Source: Massilia rubra (lineage in GTDB: Bacteria; Pseudomonadota; Gammaproteobacteria; Burkholderiales; Burkholderiaceae_D). From it: DNA of 64,000 bases. This document shows positions 26,701 to 38,887 of the stretch, piece after piece. Location: NCBI RefSeq assembly GCF_011682065.1, contig NZ_VUYU01000031.1:1-64000 (forward strand), written 5' to 3'. The notes below the pieces were generated by a model. It saw only the letters and a program-made list of their open reading frames with translations, did no database searches and was not told the DNA's origin. The translations under genes were made by a program, and so were the position numbers. Numbering within the stretch: the first letter of the stretch is position 1; the number at the start of each line of letters is the position of its first letter.

Positions 26701-26928
26701 CATTTCTCCGCAAATTCCGTGGCACGCCTCGCGCGTGGCCTGCCTGGCACTAGCGGGGGGCCAGCGAAACCATGCAAGCTTATCAACTGTGCAAGCTTGC
26801 CGGCCCACGTTACGGAACTTACGTTTGCCCCGGATTCTGTTTCAATTGTAAGCAGGTGAATCAATGGTCCGGAAGCGTCGGGCGCCTTGCTATATTGGAT
26901 TCATAGGAATTCACAAGGAGAAGTAAAA

Positions 26929-27801
26929 ATGAAGCGTACCCTGACCTTTGCAGCACTGATCACCCTTGGCGCCGCCGGTTTCATGCCGCTGCCGTCGGTC
27001 GCTCAAACTGACTTCCGTGTGATCATCAACACCGCCCCGCCCGCACCGCGCTTCGAAAGCGTGCCGGCGCCACGCAGCGGCTACGTGTGGGCGCCCGGTT
27101 TCTGGAACTGGGAAAACAACCGCCACGTCTGGACCGCCGGCCACTGGGAAAGCGCGCGCAGCGGCTACGAATACCGCCGTACCGAATGGATCCGCGATAA
27201 CAACAGCTATCGACTCAACCAGGGTGGCTGGCAGCAGGTGTCGCAGCAAAACTACGCGGTAGTGCGCGTCGCGCCGCCACCGCCACGTTACGAACGCATG
27301 CCGCGCCCACGCGCCGGCCATGTGTGGGTTCCCGGTCACTGGGAATGGCGCGGCAACCGCCACGCCTGGATCGGCGGCCAGTGGATGCGCGAACGCGCAG
27401 GCTATGTGTACTCGCAGCCGGCCTGGGTCCAGCGCGACGGCAACTGGTACATGGAACCGGCCCGCTGGAGCCGCCATGGCGAAGGCCGCGACCGCGACCG
27501 TGACGGTATCCCGGACCGCCTCGAAGGCCGCGACCGTGACCGTGACGGCATCCCGGACCGCCTCGAGGGCCGCGACCGTGACCGCGACGGCATCCCGGAC
27601 CGCCTGGAAGGCCGCGACCGCAACCGCGATGGGGTGCCGGACCGCCTGGAACACCGTGACCGCGACCGTGACGGCGTGCCCGACGCCTACGACCGCGATC
27701 GCGACAACGACGGTGTGCCCAACCGCGTCGACCGCGACCGCGATGGCGACGGCGTCCCGAACCGCCGCGACAGCCGTCCCGACAATCCACGCCGCGACTG
27801 A
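26929..27801 (+). CDS. YXWGXW-repeat protein with Asp-rich C-terminal repeats
   Basis: A 290-residue exported protein. ATG 26929 is 8 nt after AAGGAG, and the signal peptide ends PSVAQ. Two YXWGXW-type units follow (SGYVWAPGFWNWENNRHVW and GHVWVPGHWEWRGNRHAW). From about residue 185 to the end there are near-identical 12-residue repeats DRDRDGIPDRLEGR and variants, ending in DRDNDGVPN units. These Asp-rich D-x-D-x-D-G units resemble calcium-binding thrombospondin type-3 repeats. It is likely a periplasmic or surface protein. The repeat DNA is nearly identical between units, so copy number may vary among strains. Confidence 0.85.
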   Translation: MKRTLTFAALITLGAAGFMPLPSVAQTDFRVIINTAPPAPRFESVPAPRSGYVWAPGFWNWENNRHVWTAGHWESARSGYEYRRTEWIRDNNSYRLNQGGWQQVSQQNYAVVRVAPPPPRYERMPRPRAGHVWVPGHWEWRGNRHAWIGGQWMRERAGYVYSQPAWVQRDGNWYMEPARWSRHGEGRDRDRDGIPDRLEGRDRDRDGIPDRLEGRDRDRDGIPDRLEGRDRNRDGVPDRLEHRDRDRDGVPDAYDRDRDNDGVPNRVDRDRDGDGVPNRRDSRPDNPRRD

Positions 27802-27818: not shown

Positions 27819-27854
27819 AAGCGCCAGCCCGGCTACCCGGCTGGCGCTTTTTTC
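27819..27854. terminator. Bidirectional terminator between YXWGXW gene and ABC exporter
   Basis: AAGCGCCAGCC pairs with GGCTGGCGCTT around a 9-base loop and is followed by TTTTTT on the plus strand. It closes the YXWGXW gene; the convergent exporter gene ends at its right edge. Confidence 0.75.
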
Positions 27855-29973
27855 ATGCCTCGCCCGACGCCATGCGCGCGAGATAAGCGGCCCTGCCCTC
27901 TTCCCCGCGCAGGTCGCAGGCCACCTTGCCCTCTTCGAGCACGATGATGCGCCCGGCCGACAGGATCGTTTCGCGCCGGTGCGCGACGATGATGCGGGTC
28001 ATCGGCAAGGCGCCGATGGCGGCGTTGACAGCCTGCTCGCGCTGCACATCCAGATGGCTGGTCGCTTCATCGAGCAACAGCAGGACCGGTTCGCGGTACA
28101 GCGCGCGCGCGATCAGGATGCGCTGTTTCTGCCCGCCCGACAAGACCGTGCCCATGTCGCCGATCAGCGTATGAAAACCCATCGGCATCGCGTTCACGTC
28201 GTCCTCCACGGCGGCGCGGCGCGCGCATTCGCGGATCCGTTCCATCGACGGCGCATCGGCAAAGAAGCTGATGTTGTCGGCGATCGAGCCGGCGAACAGC
28301 TGGTCGTCCTGCATCACCACGCCGATCTGGGCGCGGTATTCGCCCAGGCCGCTCCGGTTGAGCGCACGGCCGTCGACTTCGATGTCGCCCGCTACCGGCT
28401 CGAGCAAACTGGCCAACAGGCGCAGCAAGGTCGTCTTGCCGCAGCCGGACGGGCCGACAATGGCCACCGATTCGCCGGCCGCGATCTCCAGGTCGATCCC
28501 ATCGAGCACCCAGGGATCGCCCGCGCCGTAGCGAAAGCGCAGATCGCGCAGGCGGATCGCCATCGGTTTGCTGTCCTGGTTCGACGGCAGCGGAAGGTGG
28601 CACACTTCCGGCGGCGTGAGCGCAATATCGGCCAGCCGTTCGGCGTGCAGGCGCAGCATGAACAGGTCGAGCGCCTTGTTGATCAAGGCGCTCACGCGCC
28701 CCATGAACTGGTCCTTGTAGCTGATAAAAGCGAGCAGCATCCCGACCGAGAAGGTATTGTCCAGCACGCGCTCGGCCCCCAGCCACACCACCAGGATCGC
28801 GATAATGCCGATCAGGAGCGAGTTCACGGTGCGGAACATCAGCCCCAGTTTTTGCGTGGTCACCTGGCGGTTCACGGTTTCCACCAGCAGGTTGAGCCAG
28901 TGGGCCTGGCGCGAGGCCTGCGCATTGAACAGTTTAATGGTGCGCATGCCGCGCAGGGTTTCGAGAAAGTGGCTGTCGCGCTTCGCGCCCCACACGATCG
29001 CTTCGACCGAGGCATCGCGCAGCGCCGTGTACGACGCGGCGCGCACCAGCGCATACAGCACGCTCCCCGCCACCACCAGCATGGTCAGTTGGGGCGCGTA
29101 GAACAGCATCACGCACAGGGTGATGGCCGCCATCAGGCCGTCGAGCAGGATTTCGACCATGTCGGTGGTGATCGCTTGCAGGATCACTTCCTGGGAGCCG
29201 AAGCGCGACATGATGTCGCCCAGGTGGCCGAACAGGCTGGCGCGCCCGGCCACCTTGATGGTGCTGGAAATGGCGATCAGGGTGGCGCCGCGCGCCGCCG
29301 TCACCGCCACCCGGATGATCAGCAAAAAAGCAAACCCCAACGAGAGCGTCAGCAGCAGGTCACGGTCGGCGCTGACCAGCGCTTCGTCGACCACCCACTG
29401 CATGAAGAACGGGCTGACCACGGCCAGCACCTCGATCGCCAGCGCCATGGCGGCCAGTGCGAACAGCGACTGCTTGACGCCCGTCATGCGCCCGAGCAGC
29501 GCGGCGAGGCGCACACGCGGGCGCGCCTGTCCCGACTCGAAAGCGGCGGTGGGACTCAGTTCCAGCGCCACCCCGGTAAAGTGTTTCAGCACGGCGGCGC
29601 GCGGCAAGCGGCGCACGCCGACCGCCGGATCGTGGATCACGACGCCCTTGGCGCTCACCTGTTTCAGGACCACGAAGTGGTTCAGGTCCCAGTGCAGGAT
29701 ACAGGGCGTGGCCAGCATCTCCAGTTCTTCGGGTTCGAGCCGCAGTGGCCGCGAGGCCAGTCCCAGGTGCACGCCGATGCTGACCAGGTCCTTGAGCGTG
29801 GCGCCGCGCAGCGACATGCCGAAGCGGCGCCGCAGGTGCGCCAGGTCGCTGCCGTTGCCATGGTATGCGGCGATCATCGCCAGGCAGGCCAGAGCGCATT
29901 CGGCCGCTTCGGTTTGCAGGATCGACGGCAGGCGCACGCCCAGGCCGGCGGCGGCGTCAAGTGGTTTGCTCAT
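27853..29973 (-). CDS. C39-peptidase ABC exporter (double-glycine peptide processing and export)
   Basis: A 706-residue three-domain exporter. The N-terminal C39 peptidase has Gln20, Cys26 (TEAAECALACLAMIAAYHG), His99 (NHFVVL) and Asp115 (HDPAVG), all in place. A six-helix ABC membrane domain follows (about 165-460), then the ATPase with Walker A GPSGCGKTT, signature LSGGQKQR, Walker B VLLLLDEATSHLD and switch His in IVAHRRET. Such proteins cut GG-leader peptides and pump the core across the inner membrane. ATG 29973 overlaps the adaptor stop (ATGA). The substrate is very probably the peptide at 32310-32498, the only GG-leader peptide seen in the window. Confidence 0.93.
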   Translation of the reverse strand: MSKPLDAAAGLGVRLPSILQTEAAECALACLAMIAAYHGNGSDLAHLRRRFGMSLRGATLKDLVSIGVHLGLASRPLRLEPEELEMLATPCILHWDLNHFVVLKQVSAKGVVIHDPAVGVRRLPRAAVLKHFTGVALELSPTAAFESGQARPRVRLAALLGRMTGVKQSLFALAAMALAIEVLAVVSPFFMQWVVDEALVSADRDLLLTLSLGFAFLLIIRVAVTAARGATLIAISSTIKVAGRASLFGHLGDIMSRFGSQEVILQAITTDMVEILLDGLMAAITLCVMLFYAPQLTMLVVAGSVLYALVRAASYTALRDASVEAIVWGAKRDSHFLETLRGMRTIKLFNAQASRQAHWLNLLVETVNRQVTTQKLGLMFRTVNSLLIGIIAILVVWLGAERVLDNTFSVGMLLAFISYKDQFMGRVSALINKALDLFMLRLHAERLADIALTPPEVCHLPLPSNQDSKPMAIRLRDLRFRYGAGDPWVLDGIDLEIAAGESVAIVGPSGCGKTTLLRLLASLLEPVAGDIEVDGRALNRSGLGEYRAQIGVVMQDDQLFAGSIADNISFFADAPSMERIRECARRAAVEDDVNAMPMGFHTLIGDMGTVLSGGQKQRILIARALYREPVLLLLDEATSHLDVQREQAVNAAIGALPMTRIIVAHRRETILSAGRIIVLEEGKVACDLRGEEGRAAYLARMASGEA

Positions 29974-31270
29974 CGCCCCAGTCTCCCGGTGATGGTGTAG
30001 ACCGGATCGAGCACCCATTCGTACAAACGGCGGCGCTCGAGCAAAATATCGGCGTCGACCTGCATGCCGGGGGCAAGCGGCACGCGAGCGCCGTAGGCCG
30101 TTACATCCTGGCGCGCCAGCGTGACGGTGATGCGGTACAGCGCTTCGCCGGCCTTGCCGTCGCCCGCCACCGCCCCGAACTGGGCCGGCAGCTCGGCCGG
30201 CTCGATGCCGGTGCGCGACATGCTCTTGATGGCGCCGGTGTAGTGCCCGAATTTTTGATACGGATAGGCCAGGTAGCGCAGCTGGACCTGCTGCCGCGCC
30301 CGCACGAAGCCGATGGCCCGGCTCGACGCGTACAGGTGCGCCTCCAGGGTGGCGCCGCGCGGCACGATGCTCAGCACCGGCGTGCCGGTGTTCACCGCCG
30401 CCCCGCGCGAGGTATGGATCGCGGTCACGGTGCCGGCCTGCGGGGCCGTGATGAGCAGTTCACGCTTGGCCGCCACCTCGGCCAGTTCGCGGTCGATGGC
30501 GCTGGTGTTGCGCGCCACCAGCGCGTTTTGCGTGGCCAGCTTGAGCGGCATGTCGTTCAGTTCCGCCTCCAGCGCCATGCGTTCGCGCCCGAGCGAGGAC
30601 AAGGCGCGCTCCAGCGAACGCAGCTTGCCCGCCTGGTCGAGCGTGGCTTCGGCCGTGTTCTGCACCTGCTGCGCCGAGATGAAGCCGCGCGCCTTGAGTT
30701 CTTCGAGCCGCTTTTCGGAGGTGCGGGCCAGGGCCACGCGGCGTTTTTGCAGGGCGATTTCCTGCACCATGTTCTCTTGCTCGGCGCGCGCGGCGGCGAT
30801 ACGGTCGACCAGCATGGCGCGCTGCTGTTCGAACGACTGGGTCGCGCGCGCCTGTTCGGCGCCCAGGCTGGCGCGCTGCGCCCGCAGTTCCTGCGCCGCC
30901 TGGGCGTTGGTCTCGCCCACGGCCACGCTGCGTTCCTCGCCCGACAGCGCAACGAGCGCCTGGCCGGCGGCGACCACGTCGCCTTCGCGCACCATCAACT
31001 TGGTGGCCACGCCCACGCGCGGCGAAAACACGCGGATCATGCCCTGCTCCGGCACCAGCCAGCCACGCGCGCCTTGCGCGTGTAGCTGGCCATGAACAGC
31101 GTGGCCGTGATGGCGGCGACGATCAAGAGCGAGGCGCAAGCGTACCAGCGGTGCGACAGGCGCGGGCGAATGGCGACCGTGCCGAGCCAGCGCGTTTGCT
31201 GTTCACTGAGCACCTGCGGCCGGAACAGCGGCTGCCCGGCCTCACTCTTCGATGAAGTAGTCGCGGACAT
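29970..31270 (-). pseudogene. HlyD-family adaptor of the peptide exporter, interrupted by a one-base frameshift
   Basis: Membrane-fusion adaptor for the C39 exporter. The N-terminal part starts at ATG 31270 (MSATTSSKSEAGQPLFRPQ), includes the membrane helix (CASLLIVAAITATLFMA) and reads to RKARVAGW before a premature stop at 31037. The rest (LVPEQGMIRVFSPRVGVATK to the end at 29970: lipoyl/barrel and long coiled coil) is in another frame. Relatives have a continuous RKARVAG-LVP-QG stretch, so one C appears to be missing near 31057-31060. If the sequence is right, the adaptor is broken or needs frameshifting; a sequencing error is equally possible. The 5' end overlaps the upstream gene by 29 bp. 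Confidence 0.8.
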
Positions 31271-32195
31271 CGTAACTGACCTCGATCATGCGGGCGATTT
31301 TTTTGATGCGCAGCACTTTGCCGATGCGCGGATTGGCAAAGTCGCGCATCAACGGCGGGCGCGGCGCGTTGAAGAAGTAGCCGGGATCCTGGGCGACGAT
31401 CGACTTGGCCACCAGATCGAGTTCGTCGCGCGAACTGACGGTCTGGATCACGCATGGCGCGTGGGTGACGCCCAGTTCGAGCAAGGCGCAGGTGCGGTGG
31501 TAGCCGTTGTTGAGGACCAGCCGGCCGCTGTCGTCGTCGCACACGGCGTTGAGGATGTTGGCGCTGTAGCCGACCACCAGGCCGAGCACGCCGGCAACCA
31601 TGCCGGAAGCGCGGTAGTCGTTCAGTTGATCGGGGCGCAGCAGCACCGGTTCGTGAAAGCGGAAATCGGTGGAGTCGGAGCGGAACACGTAGCGCTTCGA
31701 GCCAGCCTCGCGGATCTGGACCGGCGCGCGCGCCTCGTCGGGCGGGAAGCAAAAATTGAACAGCGCGGCCGCATCGGGATTCGGCCCCAACTGCGCCTTG
31801 AGCTGGTCCACAAAGGTGCGCGTGACGTGGTTCTGGCATACCACCATGCGCCCCAGTTCGACCATGGCGATGCGGGTCGGCAGGCTGTTGAAGGTGCGCG
31901 CGTACTGCGAACCGGCGCATACCTGCGCGGCCAGCGGCGCCATTGCGGCAGGCAGCGCGGCGCAGTCCAGATCGTCGGCAATGCCGGCCTCGGTTTTTGC
32001 CAGTTCTTCGTAATACAGGTTGGCCGCGCTCCATTCGCGGATCAGCGCGGGACGAATGGCCTCGATCGACTCGGCGCACAGGTCGTCGGCGAAATCGAGA
32101 TATTTTTGCAGCGGCGCCTGGCCGAGCAGCCACAGTTCTTCGTGGGTCGGCCGCGCCAGCGCGGCCTCGGGTGCCGGGATGTCGGAATCGTGCAT
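31242..32195 (-). CDS. ParB-like protein in the peptide locus, possible maturation or regulatory factor
   Basis: A 317-residue protein. The C-terminal half contains LVLNNGYHRTCALLELGV followed by THAPCVIQTV, the signature of the ParB/sulfiredoxin-like fold, in which such a loop binds a nucleotide. The N-terminal 190 residues are helical (WLLGQAPLQKYLDFADD) and unassigned. ATG 32195 follows GAGG. It lies between the GG-leader peptide gene (114 bp upstream) and the exporter genes, and overlaps the adaptor gene, so it belongs to the same operon. The role is unknown: it could modify the Ser/Lys-rich core, confer immunity, or regulate. Confidence 0.65.
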   Translation of the reverse strand: MHDSDIPAPEAALARPTHEELWLLGQAPLQKYLDFADDLCAESIEAIRPALIREWSAANLYYEELAKTEAGIADDLDCAALPAAMAPLAAQVCAGSQYARTFNSLPTRIAMVELGRMVVCQNHVTRTFVDQLKAQLGPNPDAAALFNFCFPPDEARAPVQIREAGSKRYVFRSDSTDFRFHEPVLLRPDQLNDYRASGMVAGVLGLVVGYSANILNAVCDDDSGRLVLNNGYHRTCALLELGVTHAPCVIQTVSSRDELDLVAKSIVAQDPGYFFNAPRPPLMRDFANPRIGKVLRIKKIARMIEVSYDVRDYFIEE

Positions 32196-32224
32196 TTTGC
32201 AACCTCACTGGAGAATTCAGGCCA

Positions 32225-32275
32225 CCGCCGCGTCCGGCGGCGGACTGAAGAAGTAGTTCCGCCAACTAACGGAAC
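32225..32275 (-). other. Two hairpins between peptide gene and ParB-like gene
   Basis: The 114-bp spacer holds two stems: GTTCCG/CGGAAC (32256-32275) and CCGCCGC/GCGGCGG (32225-32243). Neither has a T tract. Stems in this position often stabilise a peptide mRNA and reduce read-through to the export genes; that role is inferred. Confidence 0.45.
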
Positions 32276-32309
32276 AATTGCACGGCAATACGCTTAAGCA
32301 AGAAACGCT

Positions 32310-32498
32310 TTACAGCAGCCATCCGAGCAGGCCGCCACGGCCGCGGCTGTGCGACTTGCTGCCGCAACCACGGCTTTTGCTCTTGCTTTTGCTCTTGCAA
32401 CGGCTCTTGCTCTTGCTCTTGCTGTGGCATTTGGTGTGGCAATCGGATTTGCCGCCGCCGTACACATGTTGCAGTTCAGTGCTGGTCAAGTTACGCAT
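32310..32498 (-). CDS. Double-glycine-leader peptide precursor, Lys/Ser-rich with four Cys
   Basis: A 62-residue precursor. ATG 32498 is 6 nt after AAGGAG. The leader MRNLTSTELQHVYGGG matches the GG-type leader consensus (LS-x2-EL-x2-V-x-GG), with cleavage expected after Gly15 or Gly16. The core begins KSDCHTKCHSKSKSKSR, repeats (Lys-Ser)n, has Cys at 20, 24, 34 and 45, and ends in a hydrophobic GGLLGWLL tail. With 10 Lys and 4 Arg it is very cationic. It is followed by a ParB-like protein, HlyD adaptor and C39 exporter. It resembles no bacteriocin family I know; two disulfides or Ser/Cys modifications are possible. Confidence 0.85.
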   Translation of the reverse strand: MRNLTSTELQHVYGGGKSDCHTKCHSKSKSKSRCKSKSKSKSRGCGSKSHSRGRGGLLGWLL

Positions 32499-32528
32499 GA
32501 TGTTCTCCTTGAATAATTGAAACTGGTT

Positions 32529-36551: not shown

Positions 36552-37415
36552 GTGTCCGATCGCATAAAAGTCATTCCCCAGTATTTAATTCCCAAACAAG
36601 GTCTGACCCGGTTCGCGGGCCGCATCGCCGGCCACCAGGGCGGGCAGTACACCACCACCCTGATTCGCTGGTTCGTCGGCAAATACGGCGTGAACATGGA
36701 AGAAGCGGCCAATCCGGACATCGCCAGCTACGCCAGCTTCAACGAATTTTTCACGCGCCCCCTGCGCCAGGACGCGCGACCGCTGGCCAAGGCCGATTTC
36801 GTCTGTCCGGTCGATGGCGCGATCAGCCAGTTCGGCGGCATCGACGACGACCAGATCTTCCAGGCCAAGGGCCACAAGTTCAGCACCACCGCGCTGGTGG
36901 GCGGCGACGCAACCCTGGCGGCCCAGTTCCAGCATGGCAGTTTCGCTAACCTGTACCTCAGCCCCAAGGATTACCACCGCCTGCACATGCCGTGCGAAGG
37001 CCGCCTGACGCGCATGATCTACGTGCCCGGCGCGCTGTTTTCGGTCAATCCGACCACCGCGCGCGGCATTCCCGGCCTGTTCGCCCGCAACGAGCGCGTG
37101 GTCTGCGTATTCAACTCGAAGGAGCATGGCGCCTTCGTGCTGGTGCTGGTGGGCGCGACCATCGTCGGCAGCATGGCCACCACCTGGCACGGCCTGGTCA
37201 ACCCGCCGCGCCCGGGCGTGGTCAAGGAATGGCGCTACGACGACAAGACCATCGTCCTCAAAAAAGGCGAAGAGATGGGCCGCTTCCTGCTTGGCTCGAC
37301 CATCGTCATGCTGTTCAAGAAAGACACGATCGGCTTCAATCCCGAGTGGGCGCCGGAACGCTCGGTGCGCCTCGGTGAGGTGATGGGCAACAAGCCAGCC
37401 GCCAAACGCGCCTGA
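36552..37415 (+). CDS. psd: Phosphatidylserine decarboxylase proenzyme
   Basis: A 287-residue membrane-associated enzyme that makes phosphatidylethanolamine from phosphatidylserine. The self-cleavage site LGST, which generates the pyruvoyl group, is in RFLLGSTIVMLF; catalytic residues appear in VCPVDGAIS and LSPKDYHRLHMP. GTG 36552 is chosen: it aligns with the family N-terminus (SDRIKVIPQYLIPKQGLTR), and the longer frame upstream has no family resemblance. A TATAAT at 36514-36519 could be the -10. The C13-type peptidase gene follows after 17 bp. Confidence 0.94.
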   Translation: MSDRIKVIPQYLIPKQGLTRFAGRIAGHQGGQYTTTLIRWFVGKYGVNMEEAANPDIASYASFNEFFTRPLRQDARPLAKADFVCPVDGAISQFGGIDDDQIFQAKGHKFSTTALVGGDATLAAQFQHGSFANLYLSPKDYHRLHMPCEGRLTRMIYVPGALFSVNPTTARGIPGLFARNERVVCVFNSKEHGAFVLVLVGATIVGSMATTWHGLVNPPRPGVVKEWRYDDKTIVLKKGEEMGRFLLGSTIVMLFKKDTIGFNPEWAPERSVRLGEVMGNKPAAKRA

Positions 37416-37432
37416 TTCGACGGGGAGGCGAC

Positions 37433-38887
37433 GTGGTGGACAACCTTACCAGTGCGCCGGTAGCGCACGCGCAGAGCGCGCCGCGGCCAAGCGTGTTGGT
37501 GACGTGGGACTGGCTCGCAGAAGCTGCGCGTTCGTCCCTGTTCCTGGCGCCACGCTGGCAACGGCTGGCGGCGTCGCCCTGGCAGATGGCGTTCCAGGTG
37601 CTGATCCACTACGGCCTGGGCATGCTGTTCCAGCGATCCTCCATCGAGGGCGAGGCCATTTTCCTGTGGCGCGCCTTGCTGGCCGGCTGGTTCGGCGCCC
37701 TGCTGACCGCATGGCTGTGCTACCTGATCCAACCCGATCCGCGCGTCAGCCGCAGCCCCCACAGCGCCCCCGGTGCGGCCCACTTGTTCACCTTGGTGAT
37801 CGCGCAGTCGAACATTTTCTTGCTGTTGATCTTCGCTCTGCATGTTTCCCTGATTCGTACAGGCCTTGTCGGCGACACCAGCGCCTGGGCGCAATGGATC
37901 GTCTGGAGCGTGCCGATACTGTGGAGCGTACTTGCAAGGCTGGCGTTGCTGCTGCGCGCCGCCCGCCCGCTTGCGTCGCTGCGGGCCATTGTCGCCATTG
38001 CCGTGGTGATGCTGACCTCTGTGCTGGAGTACCACCTTGCCCCCACGCCGATGGCCTGGCGCGCCGCGCCCCAACCCGAGGCGCCGGAAGAAGAACCGTT
38101 CATGGTCAGCCAGGAAATGATGGAAGCGCAGCTGCCCCTGCTCGACGAGCAGCTCGACGCGCTCAAGCCGCAGCGTCCGGGCGTGATCGACATGTACACG
38201 ATCACCTTCGCGCCCTACCAGGGCGAAGAAGTGTTCCGGCGCGAGAGCGCCATGGTGGCCGACGTGATGGCCAGGCGCTTCGACGCCGCCGGCCGTGGCC
38301 TGCAACTGATCAACCACCGCAAGACGGCCGAAGAACTGCCGTGGGCCACGCCGCTGAACCTGCAGCGCGCCATCGAAGGCATTGGCGCCATCATGGACCG
38401 CGACGAAGATGTGCTGTTCATCCATATGACCTCGCACGGGGCGTCGGACGGCGAACTGGCGGCCAATTTCTGGCCGATCGATGTGGAACCGGTGATGCCG
38501 CCGGACCTGAAGGAATGGCTCGATGCGGCCGGCATCCGTTACCGCGTGCTGTCGATTTCGGCCTGCTTCGCCGGCAACTGGATCGCGCCGCTGGCGGCCG
38601 ACGGCACCCTGGTGATGACGGCGTCGGACGCCGACCATACGTCCTACGGCTGCGGCAAAAAGTCGCCGCTGACGTTCTTCGGCCGCGCCATGTACGACGA
38701 ACAGCTGCGCACCACCACGCGCTCGTTCACCGAGGCCCATGCCGCCTCGCGCAAGATCATCCTGCAACGCGAAACCGCAGCCGGCAAGGACGATGGCTAT
38801 TCGAATCCGCAGATCAAGGTGGGCGGCAAGATCGTGCCGGTGCTGGAACGGATGAACAAGCGGCTGGCGGAAAAGCCGTCAGCGTAG
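37433..38887 (+). CDS. Membrane protein with C13 (legumain/caspase-like) peptidase domain
   Basis: A 484-residue protein. The N-terminal 210 residues carry several hydrophobic helices (for example HLFTLVIAQSNIFLLLIFAL and AIVAIAVVMLTSVLEY). The C-terminal 260 residues are a peptidase C13 domain with the clan CD dyad: His in FIHMTSHGASDGEL and Cys in SISACFAGNW. Such proteins cut after Asn or Asp; bacterial substrates are mostly unknown. GTG 37433 is 4 nt after GGGGAGG. It is probably co-transcribed with psd. A strong GC stem (38897-38916) without a T run follows the gene. Confidence 0.85.
   Translation: MVDNLTSAPVAHAQSAPRPSVLVTWDWLAEAARSSLFLAPRWQRLAASPWQMAFQVLIHYGLGMLFQRSSIEGEAIFLWRALLAGWFGALLTAWLCYLIQPDPRVSRSPHSAPGAAHLFTLVIAQSNIFLLLIFALHVSLIRTGLVGDTSAWAQWIVWSVPILWSVLARLALLLRAARPLASLRAIVAIAVVMLTSVLEYHLAPTPMAWRAAPQPEAPEEEPFMVSQEMMEAQLPLLDEQLDALKPQRPGVIDMYTITFAPYQGEEVFRRESAMVADVMARRFDAAGRGLQLINHRKTAEELPWATPLNLQRAIEGIGAIMDRDEDVLFIHMTSHGASDGELAANFWPIDVEPVMPPDLKEWLDAAGIRYRVLSISACFAGNWIAPLAADGTLVMTASDADHTSYGCGKKSPLTFFGRAMYDEQLRTTTRSFTEAHAASRKIILQRETAAGKDDGYSNPQIKVGGKIVPVLERMNKRLAEKPSA

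Follow-up and report, generated by a model that had tools for sequence, protein, structure and literature searches.

Which peptide is made by the locus at positions 27853-32498, (-) strand, of the Massilia rubra DNA analysed here (contig NZ_VUYU01000031.1; the whole stretch of 64,000 nucleotides is called the window), what part is played by the ParB-like protein encoded in it, and can the locus still export its product? The locus consists of four genes, encoding a precursor peptide, a ParB-like protein, an HlyD adaptor and an ABC exporter with a C39 peptidase domain. We regard it as almost certain that the precursors of this and related loci form a real conserved peptide family, and C39 export is highly probable in the relatives whose genes are intact. 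The copy in the window is probably decaying, with its precursor and ParB-like genes still intact. The features, in the direction of transcription, are as follows (ORF, open reading frame).

32505..32510, (-) strand: AAGGAG, the likely ribosome-binding site ahead of the precursor ATG, from the sequence
32313..32498, (-) strand: precursor gene, 62 amino acids, stop codon at 32310-32312, leader and core read from the sequence
32196..32309, (-) strand: spacer from the precursor gene to the ParB-like gene, holding a terminator-like hairpin at 32275-32256
31242..32195, (-) strand: gene of a ParB/Srx-type, putatively SerK-related accessory protein, 317 amino acids, with the motif NGYHR at residues 230-234
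31037..31270, (-) strand: N-terminal piece of the HlyD adaptor, in another frame than the remainder, from the ORF and comparison with M. aquatica
29970..31139, (-) strand: remaining piece of the HlyD adaptor, a mechanical ORF in which homology begins at about 31064
27853..29973, (-) strand: C39-peptidase ABC exporter, 706 amino acids, with C26/H99/D115 present and a 13-residue gap near 29226

An initial annotation made from the sequence had described a 62-residue precursor with a double-glycine (GG) leader, an exporter with an intact C26/H99/D115 peptidase, and an arrangement of all genes on one strand with overlaps. All three were recovered at the positions listed, the overlaps being 29 nucleotides between the ParB-like ORF and the start of HlyD and 4 nucleotides between HlyD and the exporter gene. 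The hairpin in the spacer was not clearly above chance (1 found, 0.6 +/- 0.7 expected), and the same holds for the outcome of a promoter scan.

The precursor family and its partner gene

Counting back from GG, the leader of the window precursor (MRNLTSTELQHVYGG) has L at -12, E at -8, L at -7 and V at -4, and it fits the consensus for leader recognition by C39 peptidases, L(-12)xxxE(-8)L(-7), given in PMC6363468. Across 21 precursors, M1, R2, L4, E8, V12 and G14 were invariant and L9 was present in at least 90%, one Blastomonas copy having W at -7. The core of the window precursor comprises 47 residues, in which Ser alternates with Lys, Arg or His, with four Cys and a hydrophobic tail. The 21 cores together consist of 25% Ser, 18% Lys, 17% Gly, 10% His and 7% Arg, and His-rich cores of the SHSH kind occur in some genomes. 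All 21 precursors of the alignment (A3) were kept for the core statistics, the window row being without its last residue; the precursor of M. mucilaginosa, picked up only by a wider regular expression, stands outside this alignment. The pattern S-x-S was found 133 times against 53.5 +/- 5.6 expected (no more than 75 in any of 2000 shuffles); SS pairs were avoided (5 against 54.6 expected, shuffle minimum 35), totals that overstate independence because the shuffling ignores kinship among the sequences. K, H or R stood between the serines in 102 of the 133 cases, and when the alternation was tested core by core, it was significant (p < 0.05) in 15 of the 21.

The precursor matched no Pfam family above cut-off, and its score for bacteriocin_sig in NCBIfam (13.1) lay under the cut-off of 15.7, so that membership in a known bacteriocin or modified-peptide family, one of the checks named in the initial annotation, gave no match above cut-off in these two collections. 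An ordinary microcin was also considered and rejected, since no curated Pfam or NCBIfam match exceeded its cut-off. With known C39 (PCAT/AMS) exporter systems, for example those of class II microcins, the window shares the leader consensus, the C39 triad, the ABC motifs and the HlyD adaptor, but it differs from them in a Ser/basic repeat core that has no curated match, in its constant ParB-like partner, and in export genes that look damaged; no immunity gene was identified in the four genes, to which the search was confined.

A first contig scan revealed eight named loci, spread over Massilia, Duganella and Pseudoduganella; Massilia and Pseudoduganella belong to the Oxalobacteraceae, which we took as the family of the window. 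When 392 genomes of this family were searched with a profile of the ParB-like protein, 14 had a match, namely 13 with a full-length gene and one (G121) with a distant one. In all 15 loci that were read in this family, the ParB-like gene is closely preceded by a precursor and followed by homology to the adaptor and exporter. Among 72,556 plasmid records, four matched the ParB-like protein (39-48% identity, annotated as hypothetical proteins), in alphaproteobacterial loci of Rhodobacter, Methylobacterium nodulans, Paracoccus and Blastomonas. All four have an upstream precursor, HlyD and a C39 exporter, the Paracoccus precursor being unannotated; their leaders are of the type MR[DE]LxxxExxxVYGA, with VSGA in Blastomonas, where the export genes are on the opposite strand. 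The genome G605, of the same class and another family, has a Gly/Lys precursor and a FemAB gene, and an ORF on the opposite strand separates its precursor from the ParB-like gene. Counting the 15 loci of the window's family, the four plasmids and G605, and leaving out G121 and the lasso-type loci described below as being of other types, 20 of 20 loci have a precursor ahead of the ParB-like gene, and in 19 of these 20 C39-type loci that gene runs in the same direction as HlyD and the exporter gene.

The pairing was also examined from the side of the precursor. Strong precursors (E <= 2.4e-12) were found in 13 of the 392 genomes, the same 13 that have the full-length ParB-like gene, where both searches used an identical request for 392 genomes and the identity of the two sets was not checked genome by genome. 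The informative part of this result is that no strong orphan precursor appeared in the other 379 genomes, because those 13 supplied most of the sequences in the profile. Three weak extra matches were read as possible orphan precursors and rejected: that in G418 is a generic GG peptide, that in G411 has no leader and an internal stop, and that in G121 is a different GG peptide, in the locus with the distant ParB-like gene. The initial annotation had suggested a peptide locus of a type that could not be placed, and had asked whether precursors occur without the ParB-like gene; the suggestion stands, and no strong precursor of that kind was found in the family. Farther away, the ParB-like protein is rare, being found in 3 of 398 genomes of the phylum (that of the window included), in 2 of 369 genomes of the class with a distant query (its own included), and in 1 of 225 genomes of the order (its own). 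Absences in these searches are not proven, because only the best few candidates per genome were scored: 5 in the ParB-like searches of the family and phylum, 10 in the order and 16 for the precursor. A phage origin was rejected, no match being present in 50,697 phage records.

The export part of the locus is of a known kind, whereas the precursor family and its ParB-like partner are unmatched above cut-off in Pfam and NCBIfam, and we read these two together as a new peptide family. A search of full-text literature gave no recognisable description of it among the matches listed, and the main text of PMC8939145 does not contain the term ParB. In this respect, the Ser/basic alternating peptides constitute a sharply defined family without a place in the two collections.

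Some loci carry further genes. On the Blastomonas plasmid (L053, 1334-3698), a gene for a 2-oxoglutarate-Fe(II) oxygenase directly follows the ParB-like gene, together with a Ser-poor second precursor. Genes of the FemA/FemB type occur in or beside the module of two distant genomes (L058, 6053-7081; L051, 11781-12812), the one in Methylobacterium lying downstream of the exporter gene. In genome G009 (L046, 8460-10101), the module is partially duplicated in tandem, with a second, different precursor and fragments of the ParB-like and HlyD genes.

Fold and possible role of the ParB-like protein

Known proteins with the ParB/Srx fold include DNA clamps, free serine kinases and sulfiredoxin. The ParB-like protein of the window has no significant match in Pfam or NCBIfam; PF02195 matched none of 11 ParB-like members, and the locus is absent from the PF02195 matches of its genome at E <= 1. 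A partitioning factor was rejected, the one strong PF02195 match of the genome lying elsewhere, and a defence protein was rejected as well, with no PADLOC match for four members. Four members were compared with NCBIfam: L045 matched SbnI (0.062) and SerK (0.091) and L051 matched SerK (0.021), all far below the cut-offs, and the window protein and L056 gave nothing.

A weak relation became visible at the level of profiles. With a profile of 15 sequences (A2), the best match in the PDB was the free serine kinase SerK (E 0.0035-0.0068), followed by a Pyrococcus protein (1vk1, E 0.15), and the motif NGYHR (residues 230-234) aligns, through its GxHR pattern, with DGHHR of SerK and also with GERR of ParB. 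An hhalign comparison with canonical ParBs scored 25.9; the highest score among 60 column shuffles was 0.93, and the reversed profile scored 10.8. The ParB alignment took 21 of 25 PF02195 loci, excluding those without the G.[RH]R..A motif or shorter than 150 amino acids, and the ORF chosen for one of them (L080) looks like a wrong frame. Foldseek searches with two AlphaFold models gave ParB, Noc, KorB, PadC, sulfiredoxin, SbnI or serine kinase in 42 of 50 and 44 of 50 of the matches listed, the best E values being 0.014 (Atu1540, fold class not checked) and 0.069 (a ParB-N domain). Judged from these profiles and models, the protein looks like a remote relative of SerK and ParB that is placed outside the characterised free-serine kinases. 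The link behind the name ParB-like, which was already used in the initial annotation, is seen at the profile and fold level and does not extend to a significant match with a Pfam or NCBIfam family.

Among 25 members, G231, H233, R234, R225, Q121 and D285 were invariant and position 182 was always Glu or Asp, and the gene is under purifying selection (ratio of nonsynonymous to synonymous substitution rates, 0.14-0.27 in four genomes). Unlike SerK and SbnI, the family has no counterparts of Glu30 and Asp69 of SerK, has about 160 residues ahead of the part that can be aligned with SerK, and is linked to peptide precursors. From canonical ParB it differs in that the window protein is not among the PF02195 matches of its genome and no helix-turn-helix (HTH) family was matched. 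A survey of the ParB/Srx fold from 2025 noted that numerous orphans yet to be characterised branch close to SerK and Srx (PMC12704722), and the words RiPP (ribosomally synthesized and post-translationally modified peptide), lasso and bacteriocin are absent from the main text of that survey.

Relatives of the protein accompany peptides of other types. In genus g249, of the same class and another family, 13 of 81 genomes have a ParB-like relative, at about 30% identity. In 12 of 12 full-length loci of this genus, the gene adjoins a lasso-type precursor, a lasso B2 protein and an asparagine-synthase-like protein (lasso A, B and C), counts that do not represent 12 independent cases because the loci are close kin (ParB-like genes 77-100% identical to that of L056). 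The lasso B2 protein of L056 exceeded its NCBIfam cut-off, and the precursors terminate in an invariant AHNHGTLWDGVFPTTSP, the core ending in FPTTSP; presumably, as in lasso peptides in general, the ring is formed by A1 to D9. No lasso gene was found at the 13th locus (L073), a 59-residue partial match that is outside the 12. The four genes of the window, in contrast, include no lasso B or C gene, Pfam recognising only C39/ABC and HlyD there. A third type is seen in G121 (L045, 3923-12173), where a 168-amino-acid GG-leader peptide with NSPQPR repeats is encoded near a 434-amino-acid protein of no known kind; then come a C39 exporter, the distant relative of the ParB-like gene, HlyD and a DUF3857/transglutaminase protein. 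The initial annotation had proposed a modifier, immunity or regulatory factor. Immunity is the least likely of these roles, because the relatives accompany unrelated peptides (lasso and long GG), and a tailoring enzyme or a regulator remain.

In the account that we favour, and about which, taken as a whole, we are evenly divided, the locus belongs to a family of C39-exported Ser/basic peptides with the ParB-like protein as tailoring enzyme. The ribosome would produce a precursor that carries a C39 leader ahead of a hydrophilic core of Ser in alternation with Lys, His or Arg. The ParB-like protein may then act on this precursor in the cytoplasm, before export, most probably as a nucleotide-dependent enzyme on Ser/Thr side chains of the core. 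The exporter would cleave after GG, and the core would be secreted through HlyD and an outer-membrane channel encoded elsewhere, to exert any role outside the cell. We take the ParB-like protein to be a RiPP-associated accessory protein, for which action on the peptide seems slightly more likely than not, and somewhat likelier than regulation. Phosphorylation is our first guess for the chemistry because SerK and SbnI are members of the fold; by this analogy it would be a tentative choice, and rather unlikely to be the right one.

Several findings, besides the kinship of the lasso loci, weigh against this account. Six of the 21 cores show no significant alternation when taken singly (L018, L019, L041, both Blastomonas copies and G605), and two related precursors are poor in Ser (3 of 44 residues in the second copy of L053, 6 of 38 in G605). 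The narrower profile of 11 sequences (A1) found no SerK in the PDB, L045 alone found nothing, and L051 alone reached SerK at E 1.1, ranked under an unrelated match. The hhalign comparison with canonical ParBs corresponds to a probability of 2.7% (P 0.017), and the structure models have low mean predicted local distance difference test values (57 and 50), with no Foldseek match passing E 0.001. The column of SerK Glu30 is variable and that of Asp69 is Asn in 24 of 25 members, and we infer that these two residues correspond to Glu20 and Asp58 of SbnI (the latter as given in PMC9641203); because they are not kept, any chemistry of the ParB-like protein must use other residues. According to PMC5120207, SerK is inactive on Ser within a peptide, and according to PMC9641203, the ParB-family gene for EdeB, in a different peptide cluster, encodes an activator of transcription.

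EdeB is the model for a different reading, in which the ParB-like protein serves as a transcription regulator specific to its pathway and perhaps switched by a nucleotide, comparable to EdeB in edeine and, reportedly, SbnI in staphyloferrin B biosynthesis, and the peptide is exported unmodified. EdeB, with its SbnI-like domain, binds and activates the promoter of its cluster (PMC9641203), the ParB-like gene of the g249 lasso loci is divergent from the precursor, which is a usual position for a regulator, and the loss of the catalytic acids of SerK agrees with this reading. It is countered by the co-orientation of the ParB-like gene with HlyD and the exporter gene in nearly all C39-type loci, by the Rhodobacter and Paracoccus loci, which already have their own response regulator and ATP-binding protein, and by the members scanned, none of which had a significant match to HTH or other DNA-binding families (L045: VapB-antitoxin, E 0.18). 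The likeness to EdeB is one of description and not of sequence comparison; edeine is non-ribosomal and an HTH is reported in EdeB, according to the same source. We consider a purely regulatory role possible, on the unlikely side.

It is also conceivable, and quite improbable in our estimate, that the peptide is an unmodified cationic or metal-binding product resembling a class II bacteriocin or microcin, with the ParB-like protein as a leader-binding chaperone, immunity protein or export coupling factor. The C39 leader, the cationic core and the SHSH cores fit such a product, a gene for DmeF, a Co/Ni efflux protein, lies upstream of the Paracoccus locus, and most loci that were read have no recognised RiPP enzyme. 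However, it would be unexpected for an immunity or coupling protein to stand next to an unrelated lasso peptide that has maturation genes of its own, and the bacteriocin_sig score stayed under its cut-off.

The tailoring account can be put more boldly: a new class of modified ribosomal peptide, in which a SerK-related enzyme of the ParB/Srx fold acts on serines within the peptide and gives every second residue of the Ser/basic repeat a charged group, having been recruited separately to S-x-S, long GG and lasso peptides. We hold this stronger version to be doubtful. A ParB/Srx-fold member travelling with three unrelated types of precursor would, as enzyme or regulator, be of a new peptide-associated kind.

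The export genes of the window copy

The initial annotation had the locus exporting its peptide, with an HlyD-type adaptor among its genes. Homology to HlyD is present from 29970 to 31270 on the (-) strand, as proposed, but it is divided over two frames and does not form one ORF: compared with M. aquatica, whose orthologue is a single ORF of 436 amino acids, the N-terminal piece matches down to 31052 and the remainder from 31064 on. The exporter was recognised by Pfam (C39 1.2e-34, ABC_membrane 1.4e-23, ABC_tran 4.9e-33) and retains the C39 triad and the ATPase motifs, and it is without 13 residues of the membrane domain that are present in seven of seven aligned homologues. Given this gap and the two-frame adaptor, complete exporter and adaptor genes were not found in the window genome. 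Export of the peptide by the window locus is not supported, because both export genes look damaged, and we think it likely that this copy cannot by itself export the peptide. Elsewhere, the genome has three further C39 matches, whose frames comprise 903, 533 and 119 codons, and the proteins of the two long frames might act in trans. The shortest is a short C39 match at G000:C43:72897-73166, in a frame of 119 residues outside the window and about 40 kb from the locus.

Errors of sequencing or assembly in an intact, active locus could instead account for the two-frame adaptor and the 13-residue gap. The assembly is a draft of 118 contigs, and when ORFs of M. aquatica (at least 100 amino acids, with a codon-position GC filter; the exporter counted twice, being split in the retrieved sequence) were compared with the window, 26 of 27 matched and two showed a frame change, the adaptor and the gene at 37291-38878, where the change lies close to the start of the gene. 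Sequencing error is thus possible but not general, because just 2 of the 26 matching ORFs have a frame change. Two independent lesions would moreover have to hit one export pair, and M. mucilaginosa (L014, 9136-11668) has lesions of its own in this pair of genes, a frame break in the adaptor and an internal deletion in the exporter, with the precursor and ParB-like genes open. We therefore consider such errors an unlikely explanation, and a decaying copy remains the preferred one.

At 26887-27801 of the window, a protein is encoded whose C-terminal part is a run of many RDRDGxPDRxE-like repeats, which we take to resemble the calcium-binding thrombospondin type 3 repeats.

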